The position numbers and the translations under genes are program-made. Positions 972 to 10,563 of a stretch of DNA of 27,348 nucleotides are shown here, one piece after another. This DNA is from a virus, in the IMG/VR virus record IMGVR_UViG_3300024520_000412, positions 1-27,348 of that record, one strand, 5' to 3'. Position 1 is the stretch's first letter; each line of letters starts with the position of its first letter. The notes beneath the pieces are model-generated. The model ran no database searches and had not been told where the DNA came from. It worked only from the letters and a program-made list of their open reading frames with translations.

Positions 972-1249
972 TAGTAACAAGTTATTTTATATCGGTTTGT
1001 TTGACCTTGGTAAATATATTCGCCAGTTTCTAAACTACAACTGTTTGTTTCCGCTGGTGTTTCGTAATCTAAAACCCATTGCAAGGACGGTAAACCGTTA
1101 ACGTTTACAGGTTCTAAAATCTCATGTTGTTCTAAGCATTCGCATTGAGGTTCTAAACTCGCGTCTACTTCTTTATTACAGGAGTTGAGCGCGTAACCCA
1201 ACCCCAATAATAAAAGAGTGCCGAACAAAAAGCCCTGTAAGCTATTCAT
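971..1249 (-). CDS. Predicted small lipoprotein, 92 aa
   Basis: The N-terminus has a short polar start and a hydrophobic core (residues 5-21, GFLFGTLLLLGLGYAL), followed by LNSC with Cys24 as the candidate lipidation site. The lipobox is imperfect because Asn occupies the -2 position. The mature part is acidic, contains CECLE and two further Cys residues, and ends with a possible beta strand (NRYKITCY). The ATG lies eight bases inside the 3' end of the upstream gene and the stop overlaps the next ATG, so it is translationally coupled on both sides. Phage lipoproteins include outer-membrane spanins and superinfection-exclusion proteins. No inner-membrane spanin partner is obvious nearby, so its role is open. 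Confidence 0.7.
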   Translation of the reverse strand: MNSLQGFLFGTLLLLGLGYALNSCNKEVDASLEPQCECLEQHEILEPVNVNGLPSLQWVLDYETPAETNSCSLETGEYIYQGQTNRYKITCY

Positions 1250-1997
1250 AAGTACCTACAATCGCTTTAAGTTCTTTCATTAAATCCCTCATGCAACCCG
1301 AACAGCTACCAACTTGTGAAACGTCCATTCTAAAGATACGGGCGTAAATAGTTCGCATTTGCATTGCTTGACTTGCATTTGCTTCAAACGGGTTTGAATC
1401 GAAGAAGCCTTTAAGAAATGTGTATTCGTCAAGCTCCAAGCAGTAAGGTTGCTTACCTCGTAAATGCAACTCGTTCAGCTTCTTACGTCGTTCTTCACAG
1501 CCGCAATCTTCACCTTCGGGCGTGAAAAATTTAACAAGCGATTTAATACCCGTTGCAGTTGTAACAGCGTTCACAACGTCACCTAAACCAGTTGGTGCGT
1601 TAGCTTCGAATGATTCGTTTAAATCTTCTTGCGTTTTTTCAGGCATAACCGCCAAAGTGTTTTCGTTGTTTTCGCCTTCTAAGGGTACAAAATCTTCGTT
1701 TGCTGGTTCTTCACTGGTAAAAGCTATGAAGGGTTCACCGTGAGCGGGTTCGTCTGTTAGAATCAATTTTTCAACGCCTGTTGGTTCTTCTTCGATTAAT
1801 TCAATCGTTGTCGCTTCGTCCAATTGTAAATCTGCACCCTCTACAACTGGTTCAACTGGTTCGGCTACTTCTTCTTTGCTTGCGTTTTCGCGCTTCTTTT
1901 GAGCAATTGTAACGCCTTTCTTCTTTTCTTCAAGCGTCATTCCTACGGCTTTTTCTTCATTACTTAGTCGAACTCTTGTTTTTTTGTTATTTCCCAT
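1242..1997 (-). CDS. Acidic protein with C-terminal CxC/CxxC cysteine domain, 251 aa
   Basis: Two regions are visible. Residues 1-40 are very basic and charged (KKTRVRLSNEEK, EEKKKGVTIAQKKRE), and about 40-140 are Glu-rich, low in complexity and probably disordered. From about 145 onward there is a compact domain: TATGIKSLVKFF, then EDCGCEERRKKLNEL, a YCLELDEY segment, and finally SCSGCMRDLMKELKAI. The CGC, single Cys and CSGC spacing suggests a zinc-binding or redox-stabilised fold. I have seen similar 'GIK..V...DCGCxxRKxxLN' segments in Bacteroidetes phage proteins next to packaging or structural genes, but this is from memory and unverified. It overlaps both neighbours by a few bases. The function is unknown; a structural or DNA-packaging accessory role is the best guess. 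Confidence 0.8.
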   Translation of the reverse strand: MGNNKKTRVRLSNEEKAVGMTLEEKKKGVTIAQKKRENASKEEVAEPVEPVVEGADLQLDEATTIELIEEEPTGVEKLILTDEPAHGEPFIAFTSEEPANEDFVPLEGENNENTLAVMPEKTQEDLNESFEANAPTGLGDVVNAVTTATGIKSLVKFFTPEGEDCGCEERRKKLNELHLRGKQPYCLELDEYTFLKGFFDSNPFEANASQAMQMRTIYARIFRMDVSQVGSCSGCMRDLMKELKAIVGTYE

Positions 1998-2157
1998 CGT
2001 TCAAATCTTTTAGTAAGTCTTTAATAATCACAGACTTTGTTATTAAATAATCGCGTCTTTCCTTGTCTACATTATCCGCTAACGCTTCTTTTGCGGTGTC
2101 TTGTGCTTTCATAACTAGAAAGTCGGTTACGGCTCTAACGCCTTGTTTTTTCGTCAT
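1987..2157 (-). CDS. Short helical protein, 56 aa, unknown function
   Basis: A 56-codon frame with ATG at 2157-2155 inside the end of the sigma-like gene and TAA at 1989-1987, a few bases into the next gene. It fills what would otherwise be the only gap of more than 130 bases here. The peptide (MTKKQGVRAVTDFLVMKAQD...) is charged, predicted all-helical, and ends LLKDLNDGK. There is no membrane segment or known motif. Overlap on both sides matches the local pattern and supports a real gene. Small helical proteins next to sigma-like factors can be adaptors, but nothing in the sequence tests that. Confidence 0.6.
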   Translation of the reverse strand: MTKKQGVRAVTDFLVMKAQDTAKEALADNVDKERRDYLITKSVIIKDLLKDLNDGK

Positions 2158-2713
2158 TCTGTAAAATTAGTTCGTAATCTTCATTTAATAAATCTTCGAA
2201 GTCTTCTTTAAGTTCTTCGGATAACTGCGCTTTGCAGTTTTTTAGAGTGGTAAAGACACTTGATAGGCTTATACCTACTTCGTCTCTAATACCTCGCATT
2301 GATTTGTTTTCGTAAACGTAAAGCGTGAATAGCTCTTGGTTGAAAGGATATTTACCCTTCTTATCGAGTTTAGCTATTTCGCTGTGCATTTTGTCTAAAA
2401 CAACATTCGTTGCGGCTTCTTTTAATTCGTGGTGTTCGTCAGCTTTTAAGACACCTTCAACGTCTCCAAAATCTACATTATTTGCTTTCTTCTTTGCTTT
2501 TACGTTCGCAATGAACATCGTGTGAAGAATGCACCAAAAATAAGTCTTGTTAACCTTTCCGTTATCTTTTAAGACACGATCACCGTAACCACCTTGGTAA
2601 ACTCGTAAGTAAGAATCTTGTATAATATCTTCAACGTCAGAGGTTGCGCCCATCTTGTGAAGGTATTTAACCCATTCTTTACGGTGTTTATCCAAAGCTT
2701 CTAAGTAATCCAT
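2135..2713 (-). CDS. ECF-like RNA polymerase sigma factor, 192 aa
   Basis: This probably directs RNA polymerase to phage promoters. Residues 25-40 (TSDVEDIIQDSYLRVYQ) match the sigma-70 region 2.1/2.2 signature typical of ECF sigma factors (D-x-E-D-hydrophobic-hydrophobic-Q-D-x-hydrophobic-x-R-V-Y). The segment at about 55-75 (TYFWCILHTMFIANVKAKKK) fits region 2.3/2.4. Residues 120-160 contain the region 4 helix-turn-helix (ELFTLYVYENKSMRGIRDEV followed by GISLSSVFTTLKNCKAQL). The length of 192 aa is normal for the family. A linker of about 40 acidic/Lys residues separates the two regions. Phage proteins of this kind are also found as terminase small subunit-like HTH proteins, which is the main alternative. 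The 71 bases upstream hold no good promoter; a TAACTTTA at 2734-2727 lacks a -33 element. Confidence 0.72.
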   Translation of the reverse strand: MDYLEALDKHRKEWVKYLHKMGATSDVEDIIQDSYLRVYQGGYGDRVLKDNGKVNKTYFWCILHTMFIANVKAKKKANNVDFGDVEGVLKADEHHELKEAATNVVLDKMHSEIAKLDKKGKYPFNQELFTLYVYENKSMRGIRDEVGISLSSVFTTLKNCKAQLSEELKEDFEDLLNEDYELILQNDEKTRR

Positions 2714-2784
2714 ACGCTTAAAGTTTTAAAGTTATTCGGCTAAGTTACTCAATCTTTAGAGAACCACCAAATTTATTTCAATAA

Positions 2785-3051
2785 TTATCGTTTTTTCTTT
2801 GGTTTCGCACCAACTACGCCACGTTCAAACGCTTTTGAATCTTCGGTTTCTAGGATAAATAACAACGTTTCCTTTATCATTTTAGCCTGTAAACTGTTTT
2901 TCTTGTCTTCTATACCGTGTACAATGTGCGCGTCGATCCTTACAAATGCGTGCAAGTCCTCTATAAACCGAGTTCCCCCACCAACATTTGTGATGGTGAG
3001 GGAACAATTTTTGCGGCTTAACAGACAATTAACAATATCTGTAAACTTCAT
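2785..3051 (-). CDS. Hypothetical basic-tailed protein, 88 aa
   Basis: The ATG at 3051-3049 lies one base after the stop of the ssDNA-binding protein gene, so this start is preferred over an upstream in-frame ATG that would overlap the SSB gene. The product begins MKFTDIVNCLLSRKNCSL, contains a probable beta-hairpin (LTITNVGGGTRFIED) and ends in the very basic tail AKPKKKR. It is not recognised. Co-transcription with the SSB and the Lys/Arg tail suggest a nucleic-acid-linked role, which is only an inference. The 71 bases after its stop hold no terminator that I can see. Confidence 0.7.
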   Translation of the reverse strand: MKFTDIVNCLLSRKNCSLTITNVGGGTRFIEDLHAFVRIDAHIVHGIEDKKNSLQAKMIKETLLFILETEDSKAFERGVVGAKPKKKR

Positions 3052-3052
3052 A

Positions 3053-3403
3053 TTAGAAAGGTAAATCGTCGTCTTCTGCGCTTTCTGTACTTGCTGGTTC
3101 GCTGTTTGCTTCACCTTCTACTTTTGTACATTTCCAGTGCGAAAGCGTTGTAAAAACTCTGTCTTTTTCTTCCCAAAGGCGAGGGCGAATATTAAACTCA
3201 ACTTCTACAACGTCACCAATTTTATTGTACTTAGCAAAATTGTGCGCGTGTTCTACGTGGTCAACTCCCTTGTAAATTTCAAACTCCCACAGGTTATTGT
3301 ATTGGTCGCCTGTATCAATTCGGTAGCTCAATTTAGCCGCTCCGCTTGCTAATACTTCAACCTCTGTGATTGCTGTAATTGTTCCTTTTACTGTGTAATT
3401 CAT
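3053..3403 (-). CDS. ssb: ssDNA-binding protein, DUF3127-like OB fold, 116 aa
   Basis: This would coat single-stranded DNA during phage replication and recombination. From the ATG at 3403-3401 the protein is 116 aa: a beta-rich OB-like domain (residues 1-95) then an acidic linker ending in DDDLPF. That acidic tip with terminal Pro-Phe is the hallmark of bacterial SSB, used to recruit partner proteins. Segments such as WEFEIYKG, GDVVEVEFNIRPR and FTTLSHWKC resemble DUF3127, the SSB-like family frequent in Bacteroidetes phages, rather than classical E. coli SSB; this assignment is from memory. A start 13 codons upstream is possible, but the chosen one begins MNYTVKGTI, like a first beta strand. 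It has its own strong promoter at 3440-3471, so it can be made independently of the exonuclease gene. Confidence 0.85.
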   Translation of the reverse strand: MNYTVKGTITAITEVEVLASGAAKLSYRIDTGDQYNNLWEFEIYKGVDHVEHAHNFAKYNKIGDVVEVEFNIRPRLWEEKDRVFTTLSHWKCTKVEGEANSEPASTESAEDDDLPF

Positions 3404-3439
3404 ACTGCTTTTGTTTATTTGTTTGTTATTAATTGAATG

Positions 3440-3471
3440 CAAATGTAAGTAACTTATTTCGTTAAATCAAA
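3440..3471 (-). promoter_or_regulatory. Predicted promoter for the ssDNA-binding protein gene
   Basis: On the minus strand TTTG (3471-3468) is followed by a 20-base spacer and TACATTTG (3447-3440), an exact match to the Bacteroidetes TTTG/TAnnTTTG boxes. The -33 box overlaps the TGA stop of the exonuclease gene. The start point should fall near 3433, giving a roughly 30-base A-rich leader before the ssb ATG. Confidence 0.75.
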
Positions 3472-4417
3472 GCTTCATTAAAGAAATATTCAATTTAAGT
3501 CGATTTTTTTCAAAGATGGTTACTTTTTCACCTTTATGTTTCTTGTATTTAGTCGGCGTTGTAATCTCCCAAAAGTCTAATTCTAAGTCTTTTACGCATG
3601 GGATTGAATAAGCTTCGTAAACCGCTCTAAGCATTCCGAAATTGCTTTTACCTTCTAACAATTTTTCTGCTTTTTTCTCACCTACACCGTTTGCGCCTTT
3701 GATATTGTCGGAATTATCACCCACTAAACATTGTTTTAAAAGAAGTTCGTAACCTTCCTGTTCGGTAGTGTAAGACCAACCGCGAAATTCTTTTTTCTCG
3801 ATCATTATTTGATAACCTGTTGGCGTTTCAAATGGAACTAAGATTGTGTTACCGTCTTCACTCTTAACCTTGTCTTTGTAATAGTTAAAATGTGCGCCTT
3901 TAATTTGTCTTAAATCCTTATCAATCGCAACAATTATACCGTTACTAATTAATTTAGCTTCAATTCCTACAAGGTCGTCAGCTTCTAACGTGTCACTGTA
4001 CCGAACATCTATAAAATCTTCTTCTAACATTTGAATAACGTAACTCTTAAATATGCTTACCGTTTGCATTATTTCGTTAGGCTTACGATTTGCTTTATAG
4101 CTTGGTAGTAAGGCTTTGCGAAAGTTTTTACGGCACGTTGTAAAGAAAACTATAACGTCTTCAACGTCGTAACCGTCGTCTTCAATTTGCCATTTAACCG
4201 CGTCAATTTGCTTGTTAAAATCTAAGTACATTTCTTCGGGGTCGTATTCGTTTTCTCTGTGAGCGTGTACAACATTGTACAACATTGAATCAGCATCGAC
4301 TAAGAGAGTATAGAAGCTCTCATTTAAGAAAGCTTCTATATTATCTCTTCTAGTTGCCTGCCCCTCACTAAGTTGAATAAATCCTTTTAAAAATTCTAAT
4401 TCTTCTTTCGGGTTCAT
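3467..4417 (-). CDS. 5'-3' exonuclease, FEN/T5 D15-like, 316 aa
   Basis: A metal-dependent flap/5' exonuclease that would remove primers or resect ends for recombination. Motifs in order: LLVDADSM (39-45, first metal-binding Asp residues), SYKANRK (106-112, helical arch base), LEADDLV (144-150), AIDKDLRQI (164-172), and GDNSDNIKG followed by GVGEKKA (233-250), the H3TH DNA-binding loop with the last metal-binding Asp residues. All expected acidic residues are present, so it should be active. The length of 316 aa is close to the T5 D15 family size. An N-terminal extension of about 33 residues precedes the first strand. It lies two bases after the ERF gene and upstream of ssb, forming a recombination cassette (annealing protein, exonuclease, SSB). 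Confidence 0.92.
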   Translation of the reverse strand: MNPKEELEFLKGFIQLSEGQATRRDNIEAFLNESFYTLLVDADSMLYNVVHAHRENEYDPEEMYLDFNKQIDAVKWQIEDDGYDVEDVIVFFTTCRKNFRKALLPSYKANRKPNEIMQTVSIFKSYVIQMLEEDFIDVRYSDTLEADDLVGIEAKLISNGIIVAIDKDLRQIKGAHFNYYKDKVKSEDGNTILVPFETPTGYQIMIEKKEFRGWSYTTEQEGYELLLKQCLVGDNSDNIKGANGVGEKKAEKLLEGKSNFGMLRAVYEAYSIPCVKDLELDFWEITTPTKYKKHKGEKVTIFEKNRLKLNISLMKL

Positions 4418-4419
4418 CT

Positions 4420-5220
4420 TTATTTTTTTAGGTCGTTAACTTGTTTAATTTGTTCGTCTGTAAGATCGTAGAAATCTAAAACGGCTTGCGGTGTTGTCTT
4501 CGCTGTACCTCTAAAAATAGCTTCGCAAATTTCATCAAGCTTAGATTGAAGACATTTTAACTTAGCCGCTTTAACTGGTTTCTTTTCCGCTGGTGCTTCT
4601 TCTTTTTTCGGCACTTCTACTGGTGCTTCTACTGGTGTTTCTTCTTTTTTCGGTTCATCCTTCTTAACTTTAACCGCGTCAATCGCTGTTATTTGCTCTT
4701 TAGATAGGTCGTAATTCTTCTTAATTCCATCTTTAGACCATTTAGCGTTACCGCTCTCGATACCGTCGCAAATCGTCTTAAATTGCTTCGCGTCTAACTT
4801 CGCTTTTGGTTTCGTTGCTGGTTTGTTTCCGTCTGTCTGTTTGTGGTGTTCGTCTGTATCAACATCTTTTGAATCATCAATAGCAAACAAACCATTTAAA
4901 GCGTACTTTCGAGCGTAAGAAGACGTTGCGCCCGTTACTTGTGCCGAATCCATGCCTTTTTTATTTTCCGCTTCTCTTGCGAACGCTGTTGAAACAATCG
5001 GTTCACCGTCACCGTGAAGCGTTGCGGTTGCTTCTACGTAGTAACGTTCTCCAATCAAAACTATTTTATCCGTTACGATCAACGTTAATTCAGCTTCTTT
5101 TAAAAGCGGCTTAACCGATTCTAAAATATCTTCACAACTTCGATAATTGTACTTTCCAAAGTTATTTCTTTGGTTTTTAGCGGCTTTCAACTCGCTTTGA
5201 ATCTTTACTAATTTTTTCAT
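4420..5220 (-). CDS. erf: ERF-family single-strand annealing recombinase, 266 aa
   Basis: Residues 1-118 are an ERF domain. The N-terminal helix QSELKAAKNQRNNFGKYNYR is followed by ILESVKPLLKEAEL, beta strands with a YYVEATATL segment, and the signature GATSSYARKYALNGLFAIDD (97-116). ERF proteins anneal complementary single strands and work with a 5'-3' exonuclease, which is the next gene. The C-terminal half is unusual: two related modules of about 43 residues (141-183 and 222-264), both ending in a YDL(S/T)xEQI motif, are joined by a Pro/Glu/Lys-rich linker. The linker contains VEAPVEVPKKEEAP-type repeats. The modules look like a tandem duplication. A 26-base A-rich leader separates it from the preceding gene. 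Confidence 0.9.
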   Translation of the reverse strand: MKKLVKIQSELKAAKNQRNNFGKYNYRSCEDILESVKPLLKEAELTLIVTDKIVLIGERYYVEATATLHGDGEPIVSTAFAREAENKKGMDSAQVTGATSSYARKYALNGLFAIDDSKDVDTDEHHKQTDGNKPATKPKAKLDAKQFKTICDGIESGNAKWSKDGIKKNYDLSKEQITAIDAVKVKKDEPKKEETPVEAPVEVPKKEEAPAEKKPVKAAKLKCLQSKLDEICEAIFRGTAKTTPQAVLDFYDLTDEQIKQVNDLKK

Positions 5221-5246
5221 TTTGCTTTTTATTTACTGTTTAATAA

Positions 5247-5597
5247 TTACTCTTCAATATCTTGACATTCAGATATATCGAATGTTCTAACAATTTTATC
5301 ATCTTTATCAATTACCAATGTTAATTCACTTGAATAGTACCCGTTATTATAACCATGACCAGCTATTCTTACAGAGTACCCGTATACAGGTATAAGCTCT
5401 ATACCATACCCTTTGACCCTTCTAAAAAACTCGTCGTCAAGGTTAAATATCAATCCATCAAAGTCTAATATATCAAGGTCTTCAATACATAGGTCGTGTG
5501 ATTCGCAACAGTCACTTACATGATCCGCATACAAAGAATATCCGTTGTTAAATTGAATAATACCATTATCCAAACTTACCACTTTTAAATTTTTCAT
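5247..5597 (-). CDS. Conserved hypothetical protein with SDCCESHDL motif, 116 aa
   Basis: A soluble, probably all-beta protein of 116 aa. Its features are an N-terminal LDNGIIQFNNGYSLYADHVS, the motif SDCCESHDLCIEDL (about 28-41), and a C-terminal GYNNGYYSSELTLVI strand followed by FDISECQD. Proteins with a DCCE...GYYSSxLxL pattern are common in phages and I think they are classed as DUF7448, but I cannot verify that. The function is unknown. The adjacent Cys, His and Glu residues could bind a metal. It is the first gene behind the promoter at 5620-5650, so it likely starts a transcription unit that continues into erf, exonuclease and perhaps ssb. Confidence 0.75.
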   Translation of the reverse strand: MKNLKVVSLDNGIIQFNNGYSLYADHVSDCCESHDLCIEDLDILDFDGLIFNLDDEFFRRVKGYGIELIPVYGYSVRIAGHGYNNGYYSSELTLVIDKDDKIVRTFDISECQDIEE

Positions 5598-5619
5598 CTG
5601 TTTAATTTATTTGTTTTTG

Positions 5620-5650
5620 TAAATGTAACTACTCTTTTTGGTTTGACAAT
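5620..5650 (-). promoter_or_regulatory. Predicted promoter before the 116-aa gene and the recombination cassette
   Basis: Minus strand: TTG (5649-5647), a 19-base spacer, then TACATTTA (5627-5620), which has one mismatch to TAnnTTTG. The -33 box is embedded in TTTTTCCATTG, and nearly the same extended element (TTTTCCATTG) precedes the promoter at 9106-9135. The leader to the ATG at 5597 is A-rich (CAAAAACAAATAAATT). Confidence 0.65.
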
Positions 5651-5658
5651 GGAAAAAT

Positions 5659-6048
5659 CTATTTTATTTTGAAATAATCGTCAATTAATTTTACGATTGC
5701 GTCAAAATCCCATTGAAAAGAAGCGTTGTAACCCATTACATTAAGGCGTTCAATCGTTTCTAACTGATTTTTTAAATGATCTTTTGGGCTTGCTTTAATT
5801 TCTCCGTTAAGTTTAAAAGGTGTTTTTATCTTCAATTCGATAAATAAACCCGCGTAACCGTTTCTAGGTTCTAAAATCAACAAGTCAGGGCAATGGAAAT
5901 TTCTATTTTGAATAGATTTGTTTCGTTGCTGTTGTTGCGGTGTAAGTCTTACATTGCTTATCGCATCGGATAAGAAAAACGCTTTCGGATATTGTAGCTT
6001 TAAATAACTGCAAACCCTTTTTTGTAATTTGTATTCGTCGTGCTTCAT
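5659..6048 (-). CDS. VRR-NUC domain nuclease, 129 aa
   Basis: A stand-alone VRR-NUC (PD-(D/E)XK superfamily) nuclease, expected to cut branched or structured DNA during phage recombination or replication. The N-terminal helix contains the conserved Glu (MKHDEYKLQKRVCSYL). The core has HCPDLLILEP (52-61, catalytic Asp55), then GLFIELKIK (68-75, Glu71-x-Lys73), and HLKNQLETIERLNVMGY (91-107) with the Gln of the family's QxxxL motif. All expected active-site residues are present. The length of 129 aa is normal for the phage stand-alone form. It is separated from the helicase-side genes by a 65-base spacer with a weak promoter-like sequence, so it may be expressed separately. Confidence 0.9.
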   Translation of the reverse strand: MKHDEYKLQKRVCSYLKLQYPKAFFLSDAISNVRLTPQQQQRNKSIQNRNFHCPDLLILEPRNGYAGLFIELKIKTPFKLNGEIKASPKDHLKNQLETIERLNVMGYNASFQWDFDAIVKLIDDYFKIK

Positions 6049-6066
6049 TTCTAACTGTTTGATTTG

Positions 6067-6097
6067 TAAATGTTTAACTATTTATATTGGTGAAAAA
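6067..6097 (-). promoter_or_regulatory. Weak promoter-like sequence before the VRR-NUC gene
   Basis: Minus strand: TTTT (6097-6094), a 19-base spacer, then AACATTTA (6074-6067), with about two mismatches to the -7 consensus. The bases after it (CAAATCAAACAG) resemble the leader of the better promoter at 5620-5650. An AAAAGTATATATTTTT run just upstream resembles a sequence upstream of the 9106-9135 promoter. Confidence 0.35.
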
Positions 6098-6113
6098 TAT
6101 ATACTTTTATATA

Positions 6114-6431
6114 TTATCCTTGGATTTTCATACCTCTACGCTCTAAAGATTCGAAACTATATTGTTCGTATTGATGCCACGCGCAATAGTCACGAATAAA
6201 GCGTTTAATGTGTTTTTTGTTCTTTTTTCCTACTGTTATGCGCTTGTAGTACACTTCAACAACAAACGTCGTTGTATGGTTCTCTAAATGCCCTACACGT
6301 TGTTTGTTGTAGTAAATTTCCGCGTAAGTAGAATCTACCTTAACAAATTCAATCTTTTTATGATCGTAATTTTTGGCGAAATCCTTAAACAACCCGCGCG
6401 GCTTAGTACATTTAATTTCCCAATTTTCCAT
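6114..6431 (-). CDS. Basic hypothetical protein, 105 aa
   Basis: A 105-residue, Lys/Arg/Tyr-rich protein starting one base after the helicase stop. It contains KKIEFVKVDSTYAEIYYNKQ (probable beta strands), VEVYYKRITVGKKNKKHIKR and a terminal helix EQYSFESLERRG. Strong basicity and cotranscription with the helicase hint at nucleic-acid binding, but there is no recognisable HTH or zinc motif and I do not know the family. The 60 bases after its stop carry the weak promoter-like sequence of the next gene and no terminator. Confidence 0.72.
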   Translation of the reverse strand: MENWEIKCTKPRGLFKDFAKNYDHKKIEFVKVDSTYAEIYYNKQRVGHLENHTTTFVVEVYYKRITVGKKNKKHIKRFIRDYCAWHQYEQYSFESLERRGMKIQG

Positions 6432-6432
6432 T

Positions 6433-7383
6433 TTAAAAATCGTCGTTTGGCATTAGTGTATTCATTGGTGTTGGTTGTTGTAGTTGTTCGGCAAATACTA
6501 TGTTACCGTCTACAAACTCGTAATAGTGTCCTTTCTTGACATCGTAAGAAAGTGAACAAGCACCACGAACACCAACAATGTTTGGTTTTGCTTTTGCTAT
6601 AATCACATCTAACGCATTGCTTTCGAAATCTCTATCTACAATTATTATGCTTTTACCATTGTTTCCCCATTCTGAACCACCTTTTAAACTGTGAATATCG
6701 GGTGTTATGGTTTTACCTTCTGAATCCTTACGCGCCTTTGTTGGGTGTATGATCGTGTGAAAGTGTAAATTGCTACGCTCTGCAAGCTCATTTCTAAAAC
6801 TTAAAGTATCTTCTAACCACTTATCTTCGCGGGCAAATCCTTCTATATCGTGGCGCATGTAGTTCCACGAATCAATTACAGCCGAAAACAAACCGTGCTT
6901 TTCCTTGTTGGCAACCGCAAATTTCCAAAATTCTTTTGGTGTTAATGCTTTTGAATTGTTCTTTTTCTTCGGGTCTAAAACCTTAAACCAATCAAGCACA
7001 TTAGGCAACCATTTATCAATTTCGGCTTCTGTTAAACGATCTTCGATTAATACGCGGTTTCCTTTTGCATCGTAATAGAATTCTTCGAATTGCTTACCGC
7101 TTAACTTATGAATCAATTTACCTATAACTTCTTGCGTTGTTCCTGCGTCGGGCATGTGTATTAAATGCTTATGACCGTACCAACGCGATTGATTTTTTAA
7201 GATGTCCAAAAGCAATTCAGATTTACCCGAACCAGCGTAACCCGTCCAATCTGTACAACCGCCCTCTTTTACTGAATAATGCTTGGCTAAACCTTTATAG
7301 CCGCAATACCAAGTTTTACCGCCGCCGTTACGATGTAATTCTATTACTTTGTCTCTGATTTCGTCTTGTTGTACTATATCCAT
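6433..7383 (-). CDS. Replicative DNA helicase, RecA-fold DnaB/Twinkle-like, 316 aa
   Basis: An ATP-dependent helicase of the RecA-fold hexameric type, expected to unwind the phage replication fork. A Walker A motif is clear at GYAGSGKS (48-55), a Walker B-like strand at LFSAVIDSWN (165-174), a sensor-like strand at FHTIIHPTK (208-216), and the DnaB-style DIHSLKGGSEWGNNGKSIII region (229-248). A KPNIVGVRGACSLSYD segment (266-281) resembles the family's C-terminal arginine-finger region. There is no primase or N-terminal DnaB domain; at 316 aa it is a minimal helicase core. It follows a replication protein and a small coiled-coil protein that could be initiator and loader, and is followed by a basic protein. 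Compared with E. coli DnaB the Walker B region is weakly conserved, so a related RecA-fold ATPase is possible. Confidence 0.85.
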   Translation of the reverse strand: MDIVQQDEIRDKVIELHRNGGGKTWYCGYKGLAKHYSVKEGGCTDWTGYAGSGKSELLLDILKNQSRWYGHKHLIHMPDAGTTQEVIGKLIHKLSGKQFEEFYYDAKGNRVLIEDRLTEAEIDKWLPNVLDWFKVLDPKKKNNSKALTPKEFWKFAVANKEKHGLFSAVIDSWNYMRHDIEGFAREDKWLEDTLSFRNELAERSNLHFHTIIHPTKARKDSEGKTITPDIHSLKGGSEWGNNGKSIIIVDRDFESNALDVIIAKAKPNIVGVRGACSLSYDVKKGHYYEFVDGNIVFAEQLQQPTPMNTLMPNDDF

Positions 7384-7386
7384 TTC

Positions 7387-7539
7387 TTAAAATAATTCAG
7401 TTTGATTACTACTTGCGCTTTCCAACTTTTCTACAATTCTTTCTAACTCCTGTTGTTCTTCTAGCAATCTAATTCGTTCACGGGTCTTTATGGCAATAAT
7501 CGTCTTTAACGTATTAATGAGTTCGATACGTTCGTCCAT
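7387..7539 (-). CDS. 50-aa coiled-coil protein with C-terminal clamp-binding-like motif
   Basis: The ATG at 7539-7537 overlaps the replication protein stop as TAATG, and the TAA at 7389-7387 lies three bases before the helicase ATG, so the frame is tightly coupled on both sides. The peptide is a predicted continuous helix (RERIRLLEEQQELERIVEKL) followed by SASSNQTELF at the extreme C-terminus. QTELF fits the bacterial beta sliding-clamp-binding pattern Q-x-x-L-F. Its place between initiator-like protein and helicase suggests a helicase-loading or clamp-tethering adaptor. This is inference; no homologue is recognised. Confidence 0.65.
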   Translation of the reverse strand: MDERIELINTLKTIIAIKTRERIRLLEEQQELERIVEKLESASSNQTELF

Positions 7540-8522
7540 TACATTGTGCGTTTTTTCTCTGCTAATCGCTTTTCGTTCGCTTCTTGTTGCGTCAACGGGT
7601 CTGCTAAGTTAGAAACTTTTTCTGTAATTGCAACAACTCCTAAAAATTTAACCGTATTTGTTAATGTTGATTTCCAATTTAAAATCGGTCTAGTCTTGTT
7701 ATCTCTCGTTATACTCCAATCGTTATCTTTCCAAGAAAAATATTTTAAACGTACATCTTCGGGGTTTACATCTGCTTTACGCTCTTTAGCATGTGCAATA
7801 AATTCTTCAAGCGAAGGCATAGGCAAAGCCTTTTTTGCTTTAGGTGCTTTAACTTGTTTCTTCTCTCTTACTGTATCTGTATCTGTATCTGTATCTGTTA
7901 CTGTCTCCCTTACTGTTGATTTTGCTAAGTCTTGTTGAAAGGTGTTAACACTTGTTGAAATACTTACCTTATTAATAATCAAGTCTTTATCTTTGATGTT
8001 GTAACATTCAGTATGTCCACCAAAATGAATCTTTGGTTTATAGCTTTTAAAAGTATCGTTTATTTCGCACTCCATTTTATTGGTATCCTCACCACCCTTA
8101 TTAAATATCGACTGCGCTAAAACCTTATAATTATACGGCATTTTAACAGAGTTACCACTAACAGAAGAATAACGGCGAGTAATAGATAGATCAGTAACTC
8201 CAACCTTTATAAATCTCTCTAAATCATTCCAGCACTCAAGAACGTATAATTGACTACCTTGTAGTTTTCTAGCTTCTGCACTTGCCTTTCCTGCTCCTGA
8301 ACGCTTCTTAACCATTTCCTTCCATTTAACCAAATCGCGTTCAAATGTAGCTTTAAAAGGAATAAACAAAAGGTTAATTAATTGATCTTCTGAAACTGGG
8401 TTTTCATCATTAACGAAAGAAAACATGTGTTTTATCAGTTTTCCCGCCGTTTCATTATCGAGAGCCTTAAAAGTTTCGTACCAATCCGTGTAAAATTGTA
8501 CTGTCTTTTTGTCTTTTGCCAT
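7539..8522 (-). CDS. Phage replication protein with embedded GIY-YIG-like domain, 327 aa
   Basis: Three parts are seen. Residues 1-86 match a phage replication-protein N-terminal domain (FYTDWYETFKALDNETAGKL, then SGAGKASAEARK) that I associate with DUF6291. Residues 90-180 look like an inserted GIY-YIG/T5orf172-like domain: QLYVLECWND, RFIKVGVTDLSITRRYSS, MPYNYKVL, MECEINDTF and HFGGHTECYNI, with the expected Tyr, KxGxT, Arg and Glu positions. Residues 200-225 are a Thr-Asp repeat linker. Residues 235-300 (PSLEEFIAHAKERK, YFSWKDNDWSI, PILNWKSTLT) match the C-terminal DNA-replication part of such proteins. It is expected to bind the origin or load the helicase that follows. The ATG at 8522 is one base after the preceding stop. 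Whether the embedded domain cleaves DNA is unknown. Confidence 0.8.
   Translation of the reverse strand: MAKDKKTVQFYTDWYETFKALDNETAGKLIKHMFSFVNDENPVSEDQLINLLFIPFKATFERDLVKWKEMVKKRSGAGKASAEARKLQGSQLYVLECWNDLERFIKVGVTDLSITRRYSSVSGNSVKMPYNYKVLAQSIFNKGGEDTNKMECEINDTFKSYKPKIHFGGHTECYNIKDKDLIINKVSISTSVNTFQQDLAKSTVRETVTDTDTDTDTVREKKQVKAPKAKKALPMPSLEEFIAHAKERKADVNPEDVRLKYFSWKDNDWSITRDNKTRPILNWKSTLTNTVKFLGVVAITEKVSNLADPLTQQEANEKRLAEKKRTM
7871..7898 (-). repeat. Hexanucleotide tandem repeat encoding Thr-Asp linker
   Basis: CTGTAT is repeated four times on the plus strand with a partial fifth copy, encoding alternating Asp and Thr in the linker of the replication protein. Copy-number change would lengthen or shorten the linker without shifting the frame. 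Confidence 0.8.
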
Positions 8523-8523
8523 G

Positions 8524-8679
8524 TTACTTGTTTTTTCTATTAGTATTTCGTTTAATCGGTTGCACCGTTTTAGACGTTTTAAGAGGTTTTAACCCTTTTG
8601 GTGGTGTGTATTCATTACTTGGTAAATCAACATCGTTAGAGACGTTGAAAAATGCGCTTATTAAATCTTTAGGTTTCAT
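8524..8679 (-). CDS. Small basic protein, 51 aa, unknown function
   Basis: The ATG at 8679-8677 overlaps the preceding TGA as ATGA, and TAA at 8526-8524 is followed after one base by the replication protein ATG. The product MKPKDLISAFFNVSNDVDLP continues with a Pro/Lys-rich basic tail (PPKGLKPLKTSK, IKRNTNRKNK). It is probably disordered at the C-terminus and nucleic-acid-compatible. Coupled junctions on both sides and placement in the replication operon support a real gene. No family is recognised. Confidence 0.6.
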   Translation of the reverse strand: MKPKDLISAFFNVSNDVDLPSNEYTPPKGLKPLKTSKTVQPIKRNTNRKNK

Positions 8680-9083
8680 ATCTTATGCAATTCTTCGTTA
8701 AGGTTTTCAATTATATTTTCTGCTTGGTGTGTAATCTCTTTTTTAAGATCATCGGAAAGCTTGGAACGGTCTATATCTTTACCGTGAATCGTAATGTTTC
8801 CTAATTCGTAACCGTAAGTTTGCTCGTAAAAATCTTCTTGCCTATCATCAAATTTATTCGCTTCGAATGTTACCACGCAAATTTGTCTATCTGATTCGTT
8901 GTAAATAATCAATTCGCCGTCTACGGTATCACATCTTAAAGAATCTTCACAAGGGTAAGCGCAATTTAAAACGCTTTCGCTAATTGTGCCGCCGTCAAGC
9001 TCGAAAGTTTTTATTACTGCTTCGTCTTTCGCTACGAAGTTTCCCATTAGTAAGTTGCTGTATTGTACTGTAAATATTTCCAT
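8676..9083 (-). CDS. Hypothetical acidic protein, first gene of replication operon, 135 aa
   Basis: A 135-residue acidic soluble protein: MEIFTVQYSNLLMGNFVAKD (beta strands), then FELDGGTISESVLNCAYPCE with two Cys residues, DRQICVVTFEA, and a C-terminal helix (LKKEITHQAENIIENLNEEL). I do not recognise it. It is the first gene behind a strong promoter (9106-9135) and after the structural-module terminator, so it should be among the earliest products of the replication region, a position often held by host-takeover or regulatory proteins. That is inference only. Confidence 0.75.
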   Translation of the reverse strand: MEIFTVQYSNLLMGNFVAKDEAVIKTFELDGGTISESVLNCAYPCEDSLRCDTVDGELIIYNESDRQICVVTFEANKFDDRQEDFYEQTYGYELGNITIHGKDIDRSKLSDDLKKEITHQAENIIENLNEELHKI

Positions 9084-9105
9084 TTGTTTTGTTTTATCGT
9101 TGGTA

Positions 9106-9135
9106 CAAATCTAATGAACTTATTTTAATCTACAA
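9106..9135 (-). promoter_or_regulatory. Predicted main promoter of the replication module
   Basis: Minus strand: TTG (9135-9133), exactly 19 bases, then TAGATTTG (9113-9106), a perfect TAnnTTTG box. The -33 box lies within TTTTCCATTG, shared with the promoter at 5620-5650, and is preceded by an AT-rich tract (AAGTATATTTTTATATA) that could act as an UP element. It sits between the terminator at 9167-9200 and the ATG at 9083, with an A-rich leader (GATAAAACAAAACAAA). Confidence 0.8.
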
Positions 9136-9166
9136 TGGAAAATATATAAAAATATACTTTTTAACC

Positions 9167-9200
9167 CAAAAAAGAGGGTTACAAATGCTGCAACCCTCTC
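9167..9200 (-). terminator. Intrinsic terminator closing the structural module
   Basis: On the minus strand AGAGGGTT (9199-9192) pairs with AACCCTCT (9180-9173): an 8-bp stem with an 11-base loop, followed by a T run. It lies about 20 bases after the metallophosphoesterase stop and just upstream of the replication promoter. It should insulate the two modules. Confidence 0.85.
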
Positions 9201-9220
9201 GTTTTCTGTTAGTTAACGTT

Positions 9221-10483
9221 TTAGATAAATTTTGGTTTAGAAATTAAATCACCATCGGTAAAGGATTCATTAACAAAACCTCTACGACCTTTCTTAAAAT
9301 TAGTCTGTACCCACTGTGAAGAAGGTGACAAGGCAGGGTAATTGAAGTAAAAGAAATCATCACTTGTACACATGTCGAAAAGTGCTTGATGAGAATCACC
9401 CTTTTTAAAGATAACCTTATTCGAGAACTTGTAAATTTCATTCTGTTTACAATACTGGTCAATCTTTTCAATTCCTTTAGAATCTAAGAACGGTTTAAAT
9501 CCAAATTTCAAAGAACTATCATCTTTACCATGTGTAATAATGAAGCAAGTTCGACCAATGTAATAATGGTTCATGAATTGTCTGTAATTGCTCACTGAAA
9601 CGTTACCGTAAGACCGTTCGGCTATTTCTTTAAATGCTGAATTAACAAAATAACCAAAAGACCCTGCGTGATTATCGTTACAGATGTTATTGAATACAAT
9701 ATTATCGTAATGCTCCACAAGACCGTTAAGAACAATCATTTTAAATTGTAAAGCACAATCAAAAGCCTCTTCGTTAGTCATGTTTTGCGGTAATGCGTGA
9801 CCGCCTCGCGTTGTTTGAGCGTTGTAGCCATCTAAGAAATCGCCCAATTCATCAACAATTAAGGTTCTACTTTCTCTTACTTTTAAAGTTCGTTGAACCA
9901 TTGTGCGGGCTTCGCTTAAAATCGCTTCTTTATTCCATTCAACCGCGTACATTGAATTTCCTGTACTGTCCGTGTCCATTCCTACGTGTACGTCTGTGTA
10001 AGTAAGAACGTCAAAATCTGAACCTTTAAATTCGTACGGTAATTTAGAAACCAAATCAATAGGTTTTAAATCCTTGGTGTGCTTTTCGATCATTCCGGCA
10101 AAATCAAATTCTTCAACCTCTTTAGAAATAGTTTCTTTAAATACTATGTTGTAGTGAGGTGTTCCAGTGTGCGAAATAAATTTGTAACTTGTAATGTCTT
10201 TACGAGGTAAATTGTAAACTTCGCAATATTCGTCAATACACATGTTTTGACCAGTTGAACCGTTCCAAGCTGACATGACGAATTTTTCGTTTTTATTATT
10301 CTTGTAATCGTTCGGGTTTGTTTCGCTAATCGTTTCAACCTTTGTAGCTGTTAACGATTTCACTTGTTCGGCTGTAACCATGTAACGGGCTTTCGTGTGT
10401 CCCTTCTGAGGCTCTTTGATTTCTAAACCTAGTTTTTCAGCTTCGGTAGCTGTTAAGTATTTTCTTACTTTCTTGTTATCCAT
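9221..10483 (-). CDS. Calcineurin-like metallophosphoesterase, 420 aa
   Basis: A two-metal phosphoesterase by motif order: TDVHVG (D164-x-H166), DELGDFLDGY (G214-D215, D218), ICNDNHAG (N271-H272, the GNH[D/E]-like box) and ITHGKDD (H318). These cover the usual metal ligands, although the classical GNHD is altered to DNH. Residues 1-60 form a separate Lys/Glu-rich N-terminal region and about 65-125 another small domain, so the phosphoesterase occupies residues 155-400. Phage members may act on nucleic acids (Mre11/SbcD-like) or nucleotides; the substrate is not evident. It is the last gene of the structural operon, after the holin-like proteins and before a strong terminator. The 80-base spacer before its ATG is AT-rich with poly-A/T tracts and no recognised signal. 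Confidence 0.82.
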   Translation of the reverse strand: MDNKKVRKYLTATEAEKLGLEIKEPQKGHTKARYMVTAEQVKSLTATKVETISETNPNDYKNNKNEKFVMSAWNGSTGQNMCIDEYCEVYNLPRKDITSYKFISHTGTPHYNIVFKETISKEVEEFDFAGMIEKHTKDLKPIDLVSKLPYEFKGSDFDVLTYTDVHVGMDTDSTGNSMYAVEWNKEAILSEARTMVQRTLKVRESRTLIVDELGDFLDGYNAQTTRGGHALPQNMTNEEAFDCALQFKMIVLNGLVEHYDNIVFNNICNDNHAGSFGYFVNSAFKEIAERSYGNVSVSNYRQFMNHYYIGRTCFIITHGKDDSSLKFGFKPFLDSKGIEKIDQYCKQNEIYKFSNKVIFKKGDSHQALFDMCTSDDFFYFNYPALSPSSQWVQTNFKKGRRGFVNESFTDGDLISKPKFI

Positions 10484-10563
10484 AAATAAATGTTAATTAT
10501 TAATAATGCAATGATAAGTAAAATTTTATAATCTAAACGTTTTTTTTGTCTTTTTTTTTAATC

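Follow-up and report, generated by a model that had tools for sequence, protein, structure and literature searches.

A T5orf172-Type GIY-YIG Nuclease Domain Inserted in Frame into Replication-Initiator-Like Proteins of Phages

Introduction

The window analyzed in this study is a whole virus record of 27,348 bases. Its minus strand carries the gene of a 327-aa protein, in which a DUF6291 domain is followed by a T5orf172-type GIY-YIG nuclease domain, a disordered linker, and a C-terminal part (Table 1). The locus raises the question of how a nuclease domain came to lie within a probable replication initiator and what it might do there. The arrangement is real and not an artefact, and its evolutionary pattern is the strong part of the answer given below. 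The reading as a whole, to which we would assign a probability of about 50%, is that a spreading in-frame nuclease uses the initiator to find its target and cuts the initiator gene or origin of co-infecting relatives that lack the insert, a cut that would serve homing, interference, or both.

Protein Layout and Gene Context

The 327-aa protein is probably a replication initiator, as judged by homology and gene context. Its relatives in Olleya phage Harreka_1 and Flavobacterium elemo phages are annotated "replication protein", its phrog matches include a "primosomal protein", and the C-terminal parts of two other insert-bearing proteins matched phrog "replication initiation" families. Furthermore, genes near the initiator matched primase/helicase families as well as an Erf annealing protein. 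Within the record, the protein matched its own gene alone, and this was the sole DUF6291 gene of the contig.

Table 1. Features of the initiator locus in the window (L003, sister phage contig; ~, approximate).
Feature	Position	Strand	Evidence
Replication-initiator-like gene with embedded nuclease domain	7539..8522	-	ORF call, 327 aa
DUF6291 N-terminal domain (residues 9-83), ends in KRSGAGKASAEARK motif	8274..8498	-	Pfam PF19808, E 3e-20
Inserted T5orf172-type GIY-YIG domain, folded unit (residues ~88-190)	7953..8261	-	phrog_681, model, VIA-align, BFVD, absence from L003
Retained disordered linker (residues ~190-236)	7815..7955	-	pLDDT < 50 in residues 198-227
6-bp tandem repeat CTGTAT x4.7 in linker DNA	7871-7898		TRF
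Initiator C-terminal part (residues ~234-327)	7542..7823	-	C-terminal BLAST piece of 108 aa, 84% identical to L003
Gene downstream: phrog_5482, with phage primase/helicase families as weaker matches	6433..7383	-	Syntenic in L003 (82%)
Erf-like ssDNA annealing protein, a recombinase	4420..5220	-	phrog_155, E 1.2e-48

In the full-length model, the DUF6291 part was all-helical (helices 14-20, 23-37, and 47-85), the nuclease domain came directly after its long helix, and the disordered linker then followed. According to this model, the nuclease domain is added on the N-terminal side of the linker and does not replace it. The preliminary description had put the domain between the N- and C-terminal replication parts, where a disordered linker is usual; the position between the two parts was borne out, but the linker had not given way to the domain. 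In the second-look structural alignment of the full-length model, no useful fold match was obtained for the DUF6291 part, and the matches of residues 235-306 to sigma factors and others (Z about 5-6) were not taken as meaningful. A literature search found no papers on DUF6291.

Identity, Fold, and Active Site of the Inserted Domain

Residues 88-216 matched phrog_681, "endonuclease", with an E value of 1.5e-16, and the profile match covered residues 90-176 (7995-8255). The borders proposed earlier, 7983-8260, were close to this match and to the folded unit. The score of the window domain against Pfam T5orf172 (PF10544) was 18.3 bits, below the cut-off of 20, whereas insert-bearing relatives of the same clade exceeded this cut-off (L033, 22.1 bits; L181, 21.3 bits).

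The domain model, obtained from a 55-row alignment (A7), had a pLDDT of 86.1 and a pTM of 0.78, and its elements were arranged as beta-beta-alpha-beta-alpha-beta-alpha, which is the GIY-YIG order. A sequence search against solved structures found no relative, the few rows returned being chance, and a Foldseek search of the model against the PDB gave nothing at E <= 1. In the second-look alignment (VIA-align), PDB ranks 1-6 were all GIY-YIG proteins, with weak Z scores and unrelated ribosomal rows just below at 3.9. They were 1ywl (4.9) and 1zg2 (4.4), which we take to belong to the GIY-YIG family, two structures of Slx1 (6sei, 4.2; 6seh, 4.1), and two of UvrC-N (1yd3, 4.1; 1yd2, 4.0). In addition, the predicted viral structures of BFVD gave 43 matches at E <= 0.001, and the named ones include T5orf172, CapR, and GIY-YIG proteins. 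The GIY-YIG/T5orf172 identity put forward in the preliminary description was supported by profile, model, and structural matches, and the predicted fold was GIY-YIG-like and not an unrelated one.

The motif positions listed in that description were all found: Y93 in LYV, K106-V-G108-V-T110, R116/R117, the acidic E151, and HFGGHTECYNI with E172. Y93, K106, G108, R116, R117, E151, and E172 were invariant in 7/7 inserted domains, the other six of which were 39-48% identical to that of the window. In the 55-row alignment, Y93, K106, G108, E151, and E172 were invariant, and R117 was kept in 90% or more. By alignment, the conserved active-site Tyr, Arg, and Glu of T5orf172/GIY-YIG are intact in the window domain. 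Decay of the inserted domains is argued against because the seven invariant positions include catalytic ones, and the inserted nuclease domain is probably active.

A captured domain without a catalytic role, either neutral or only binding DNA, is quite unlikely. The classical GIY-YIG motif has a second Tyr, at which the window domain carries Lys (K106), and one T5 Orf172 protein (BFVD row 2) is labelled "DNA-binding domain"; both would suit such a passenger. The retention of the seven residues at so low an identity speaks for catalysis instead, and so does Odn, a DNA-cutting protein with this type of domain that is inactive in its E180A form (PMC8263062).

Empty Allele in a Sister Phage

The sister phage L003, an IMG/VR contig, had the same gene order at 1020-6713 as the window at 3470-10492, with 77-95% protein identity of the annotated genes. 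Its initiator was 244 aa long, had no nuclease domain, and kept a short linker segment between the N- and C-terminal pieces, the former being 90% identical to that of the window. The initiator gene of L003 is an empty allele at the insertion site. For the host parts of the two initiators, dN/dS was 0.050/0.800 (86 codons) and 0.159/0.801 (138 codons), indicating purifying selection. The divergence of these host parts may predate the insertion.

The domain was also found in 0 of 80 DUF6291 ORFs (best 80 of 577 relatives). Since the region is missing from these and from L003, it is not an ordinary part of the replication domain, in agreement with the view taken in the preliminary description. 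Among phrog_29280 ORFs, the domain occurred in 2/80 (nearest 80 of 280 relatives), both of them on the contigs from which the queries L020 and L021 came. Such rarity in both families is below expectation for an efficient homing element.

The Same Insertion in Other Initiators

The domain scan kept 80/208 relatives; together with further scans and a uniform extraction, it yielded 124 distinct sequences bearing the domain. More than 55 residues followed the domain in 9/124, and seven of these nine were initiators. The DUF6291 hosts were the window protein, L019 (= L250), L033 (= L034), and L181, and the phrog_29280 hosts were L020, L021, and L063; the six beyond the window were of phage or prophage. 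L019/L250 came from the genome of an isolate, Sphingobacterium allocomposti DSM 18850. The first conserved Tyr was located 15-22 residues past the AG of a KRxxAGxxGG-like motif in 7/7 inserted cases. Within the stretches compared, L033 shared the initiator alone with Olleya phage Harreka.

An assembly artefact in the form of a chimeric contig can be practically dismissed. The window is a virus contig and not an isolate, which might raise this suspicion, but the insert is in frame between syntenic flanks, and the same arrangement was present in an isolate genome and in independent contigs.

The remaining two of the nine sequences were L028, a Zn-finger-type nuclease with a tail, and L010 (1506-3305 of LR756504.1, a 636-kb uncultured phage), in which a Zn-finger-type T5orf172 nuclease lay in one open frame with a domain resembling IMP dehydrogenase/GMP reductase (Pfam IMPDH, E 5e-40). 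In L010, too, a homing-type nuclease is fused in frame to an unrelated gene. In L176 (946-1785), an insert-free DUF6291 initiator gene was directly preceded by a homing-type gene, which encoded a stand-alone MUG113/T5orf172 protein (E 5.5e-12 and 1.6e-8) and overlapped the initiator start by a few bases. Moreover, Nostoc sp. CCCryo 231-06 (L255, 2824-3324) had the same domain type (phrog_681, E 4e-9) after a short N-terminal region without a confident family match, and domain relatives with 34-38% identity were present in nine Acinetobacter plasmid records.

Among Bacteroidota genomes, 2/395 matched; one was the centre genome itself and the other was L257 (E 1.3e-4). When annotated phages were searched by tblastn with four inserted domains, the proteins inspected among the matches listed were free-standing or RepA_N fusions. 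In the accessible portions of the papers returned by a literature search, no report of a GIY-YIG insert within a phage initiator was recognised.

Domain and Host Trees

The domain tree comprised 94 domains and 83 columns, after the 124 distinct sequences, 123 of which were long enough, had been reduced at 85% similarity. The seven inserted domains formed one clade (95/77), recovered in 94% of 200 bootstraps, a bootstrap that was not fully settled and drew on few columns, and 0/500 shuffles were as low for this grouping. Free-standing homing-type nucleases surrounded the clade. Furthermore, a Gln two residues ahead of the first conserved Tyr occurred in 7/7 inserted domains and in 0/87 of the others (7 of the 87 undetermined).

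In the 80-domain DUF6291 tree, the four insert-bearing hosts were scattered, with 4 changes, at least 3 of them forced by well-supported branches, and 0/200 bootstraps had one change only. The window-L003 and L033-Harreka pairs were each supported at 100/99, and L181 was a long branch. Because of these scattered and largely forced changes, a single ancient insertion into DUF6291 with loss everywhere else seems unlikely, the change counts by themselves being compatible with gain and loss alike. One domain clade, scattered DUF6291 hosts, and two host families together demonstrate, at the level of sequence comparison, that the insert lineage spreads laterally and independently of the host gene. 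By the same comparisons, the insert entered initiators at the same joint several times, in two apparently unrelated families.

The drawn tree mixed the host families inside the inserted clade. Back-and-forth exchange between the families was considered and not adopted: AU tests rejected neither the DUF6291-hosted inserts as one clade (p 0.232) nor the phrog_29280-hosted ones (p 0.622), and the constrained tree of the second test was even the likelier one. Since neither constraint was rejected, one cross-family move was taken as the minimum, and repeated exchange was not established.

These results bear on the suggestion in the preliminary description that the domain is a domesticated homing-type endonuclease, which was offered alongside a putative new origin-binding/nicking module. 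The homing-type derivation agreed with the tree and profiles, but recurrent, scattered acquisition agrees no less well with an element that is still mobile than with a domesticated one. A domesticated replication module whose nick in the origin of the phage itself helps to start replication would account for the purifying selection on the host parts and for the kept catalytic residues. It is nevertheless highly improbable, as the domain would be dispensable for such replication because it is missing from L003, whose replication module is otherwise the same, and from nearly all relatives examined in the two families (best 80 of 577, nearest 80 of 280). Scattered gain is likewise unlike a core function.

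Leader Motif and Linker Repeats

An AGxxGG-like motif was native in DUF6291, where it was present in 82/83 proteins. In phrog_29280 proteins, the leader AGxKGG was found in 3/67, exactly the three with the insert (nearest 80 of 280 relatives). A truncated ORF, L360, which entered a second count (103 domain rows), had an NGSKGG variant and no insert in view. The simplest reading would be that the leader and the nuclease domain were transferred into phrog_29280 as a single piece. The DUF6291 and phrog_29280 profiles shared 25 columns only, around KRxxAG (probability 21), and because they share so few columns the two families were treated as unrelated, with this caveat. As compared by eye (L099-L178 and L287-L366), the C-terminal parts of the two families seemed interchangeable and the N-terminal domains differed; modular shuffling at the linker between the two kinds of initiators is suggested.

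In the linker DNA of the window protein's gene, repeats were above the level of synonymous-codon shuffles (16 vs. 3.2). Linker repeats exceeded synonymous shuffles in 68/83 DUF6291 and 47/67 phrog_29280 genes, and the corresponding N-domain controls were 1/83 and 11/67. Such repeats may be the sign of an origin within the initiator gene, for which ori-lambda in gene O is a parallel (PMC6022878). They were not used as proof of an origin, because recent slippage yields the same signal. The candidate iteron AACAAGTGTT was rejected, as it had 4 matches with one mismatch allowed against 4.67 expected.

Proposed Mechanism

As the domain itself, the empty sister allele, and the nuclease tree show, a T5orf172-type GIY-YIG domain, kin to phage homing-type endonucleases, has been inserted in frame at the joint between DUF6291 and the flexible linker. 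Because this joint tolerates an extra domain, intron or intein splicing is not needed. The following course of events may be proposed. The presumed DNA-binding region of the initiator, with DUF6291 as the putative targeting part, would bring the nuclease to the initiator gene or origin, where it could cut or nick the copy of a co-infecting relative that lacks the insert. Such a break would block the replication of the rival, and its repair from the insert-bearing copy, helped by the phage's Erf-type annealing protein, would spread the domain together with its flanks. Resistance of the insert-bearing gene to its own nuclease is presumed, because its own site has been changed.

A more specific form of this proposal is advanced tentatively and is on balance doubtful. 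It supposes that a mobile domain with its own AGxKGG leader, and with neither a splicing domain nor a DNA-binding domain of its own, spreads across phages and unrelated initiator families and uses the initiator to destroy or convert the origin of insert-free relatives.

The fusion might also be kept as a weapon against another replicon with the same initiator type, be it a satellite or a rival phage, whose origin it would cut; selection would then act on interference and not on the spread of the domain itself. ICP1 Odn and Gp5 and three coliphage proteins are described as joining T5orf172 to a RepA_N that matches the initiator of a satellite (PMC10448857, PMC8263062). Moreover, ICP1 ORF5 was match 42 in BFVD, and ICP1 Gp5 was matched by the domain of L033 in tblastn. 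The window fusion is, unlike Odn, the phage's only DUF6291 initiator, lies at a syntenic locus, has kept its C-terminal part, and would need to spare its own origin, which makes an Odn-like role unlikely.

If the reading of a spreading nuclease guided by the initiator is true, homing can hijack the targeting of an essential replication protein by means of an in-frame domain, not an intron, an intein, or a separate gene. It would also link the choice of essential genes by homing nucleases with the origin of origin-directed weapons such as Odn. L003 and the window form a ready empty/occupied pair for tests, to which the isolate prophage can be added.

Comparison with Known Systems

Inteins and intron-encoded homing endonucleases also place a nuclease inside an important gene, and empty alleles of such genes exist. 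The window protein resembles them in both respects. It differs from inteins in that the domain stays in the protein within one open frame, and no splicing (Hint) domain was among the Pfam matches of the window protein at E <= 10.

The nuclease domain is of the same type as that of the T5orf172 homing-type endonucleases, in which CapR, DUF723, or DUF4397 Zn-finger repeats are combined with T5orf172 (PMC10448857). Those enzymes are encoded by free-standing genes and mostly bring Zn-finger-like repeats of their own, whereas the window domain has no such repeats and is not a gene of its own, since a single open frame encodes it together with the initiator.

ICP1 Odn/Gp5 and the coliphage RepA_N-T5orf172 proteins are alike to the window protein in that T5orf172 is joined to a replication-initiator domain, and they offer a working analogy for origin targeting. 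Odn, a fusion of T5orf172 and RepA_N, cuts an origin (PMC8263062), and initiator-T5orf172 fusions are presented in another study as repeated domestication of HEGs against satellites (PMC10448857). The Odn, Gp5, and coliphage fusions are separate accessory genes whose RepA_N matches the satellite's initiator, and in ICP1 Gp5 the nuclease is at the N-terminus, as read from its sequence. The window protein differs from such fusions in being the complete initiator of the phage itself; its domain sits next to DUF6291, and no RepA_N was among its Pfam matches at E <= 10.

Phage PhiPA3 provides a precedent for the proposed benefit. A homing endonuclease of this phage, gp210, gives a competitive advantage by aiding one phage against a co-infecting one (PMC11620839). 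PhiPA3 gp210 is of the HNH type and intron-encoded, whereas the window domain is of the GIY-YIG type and in frame with the initiator.
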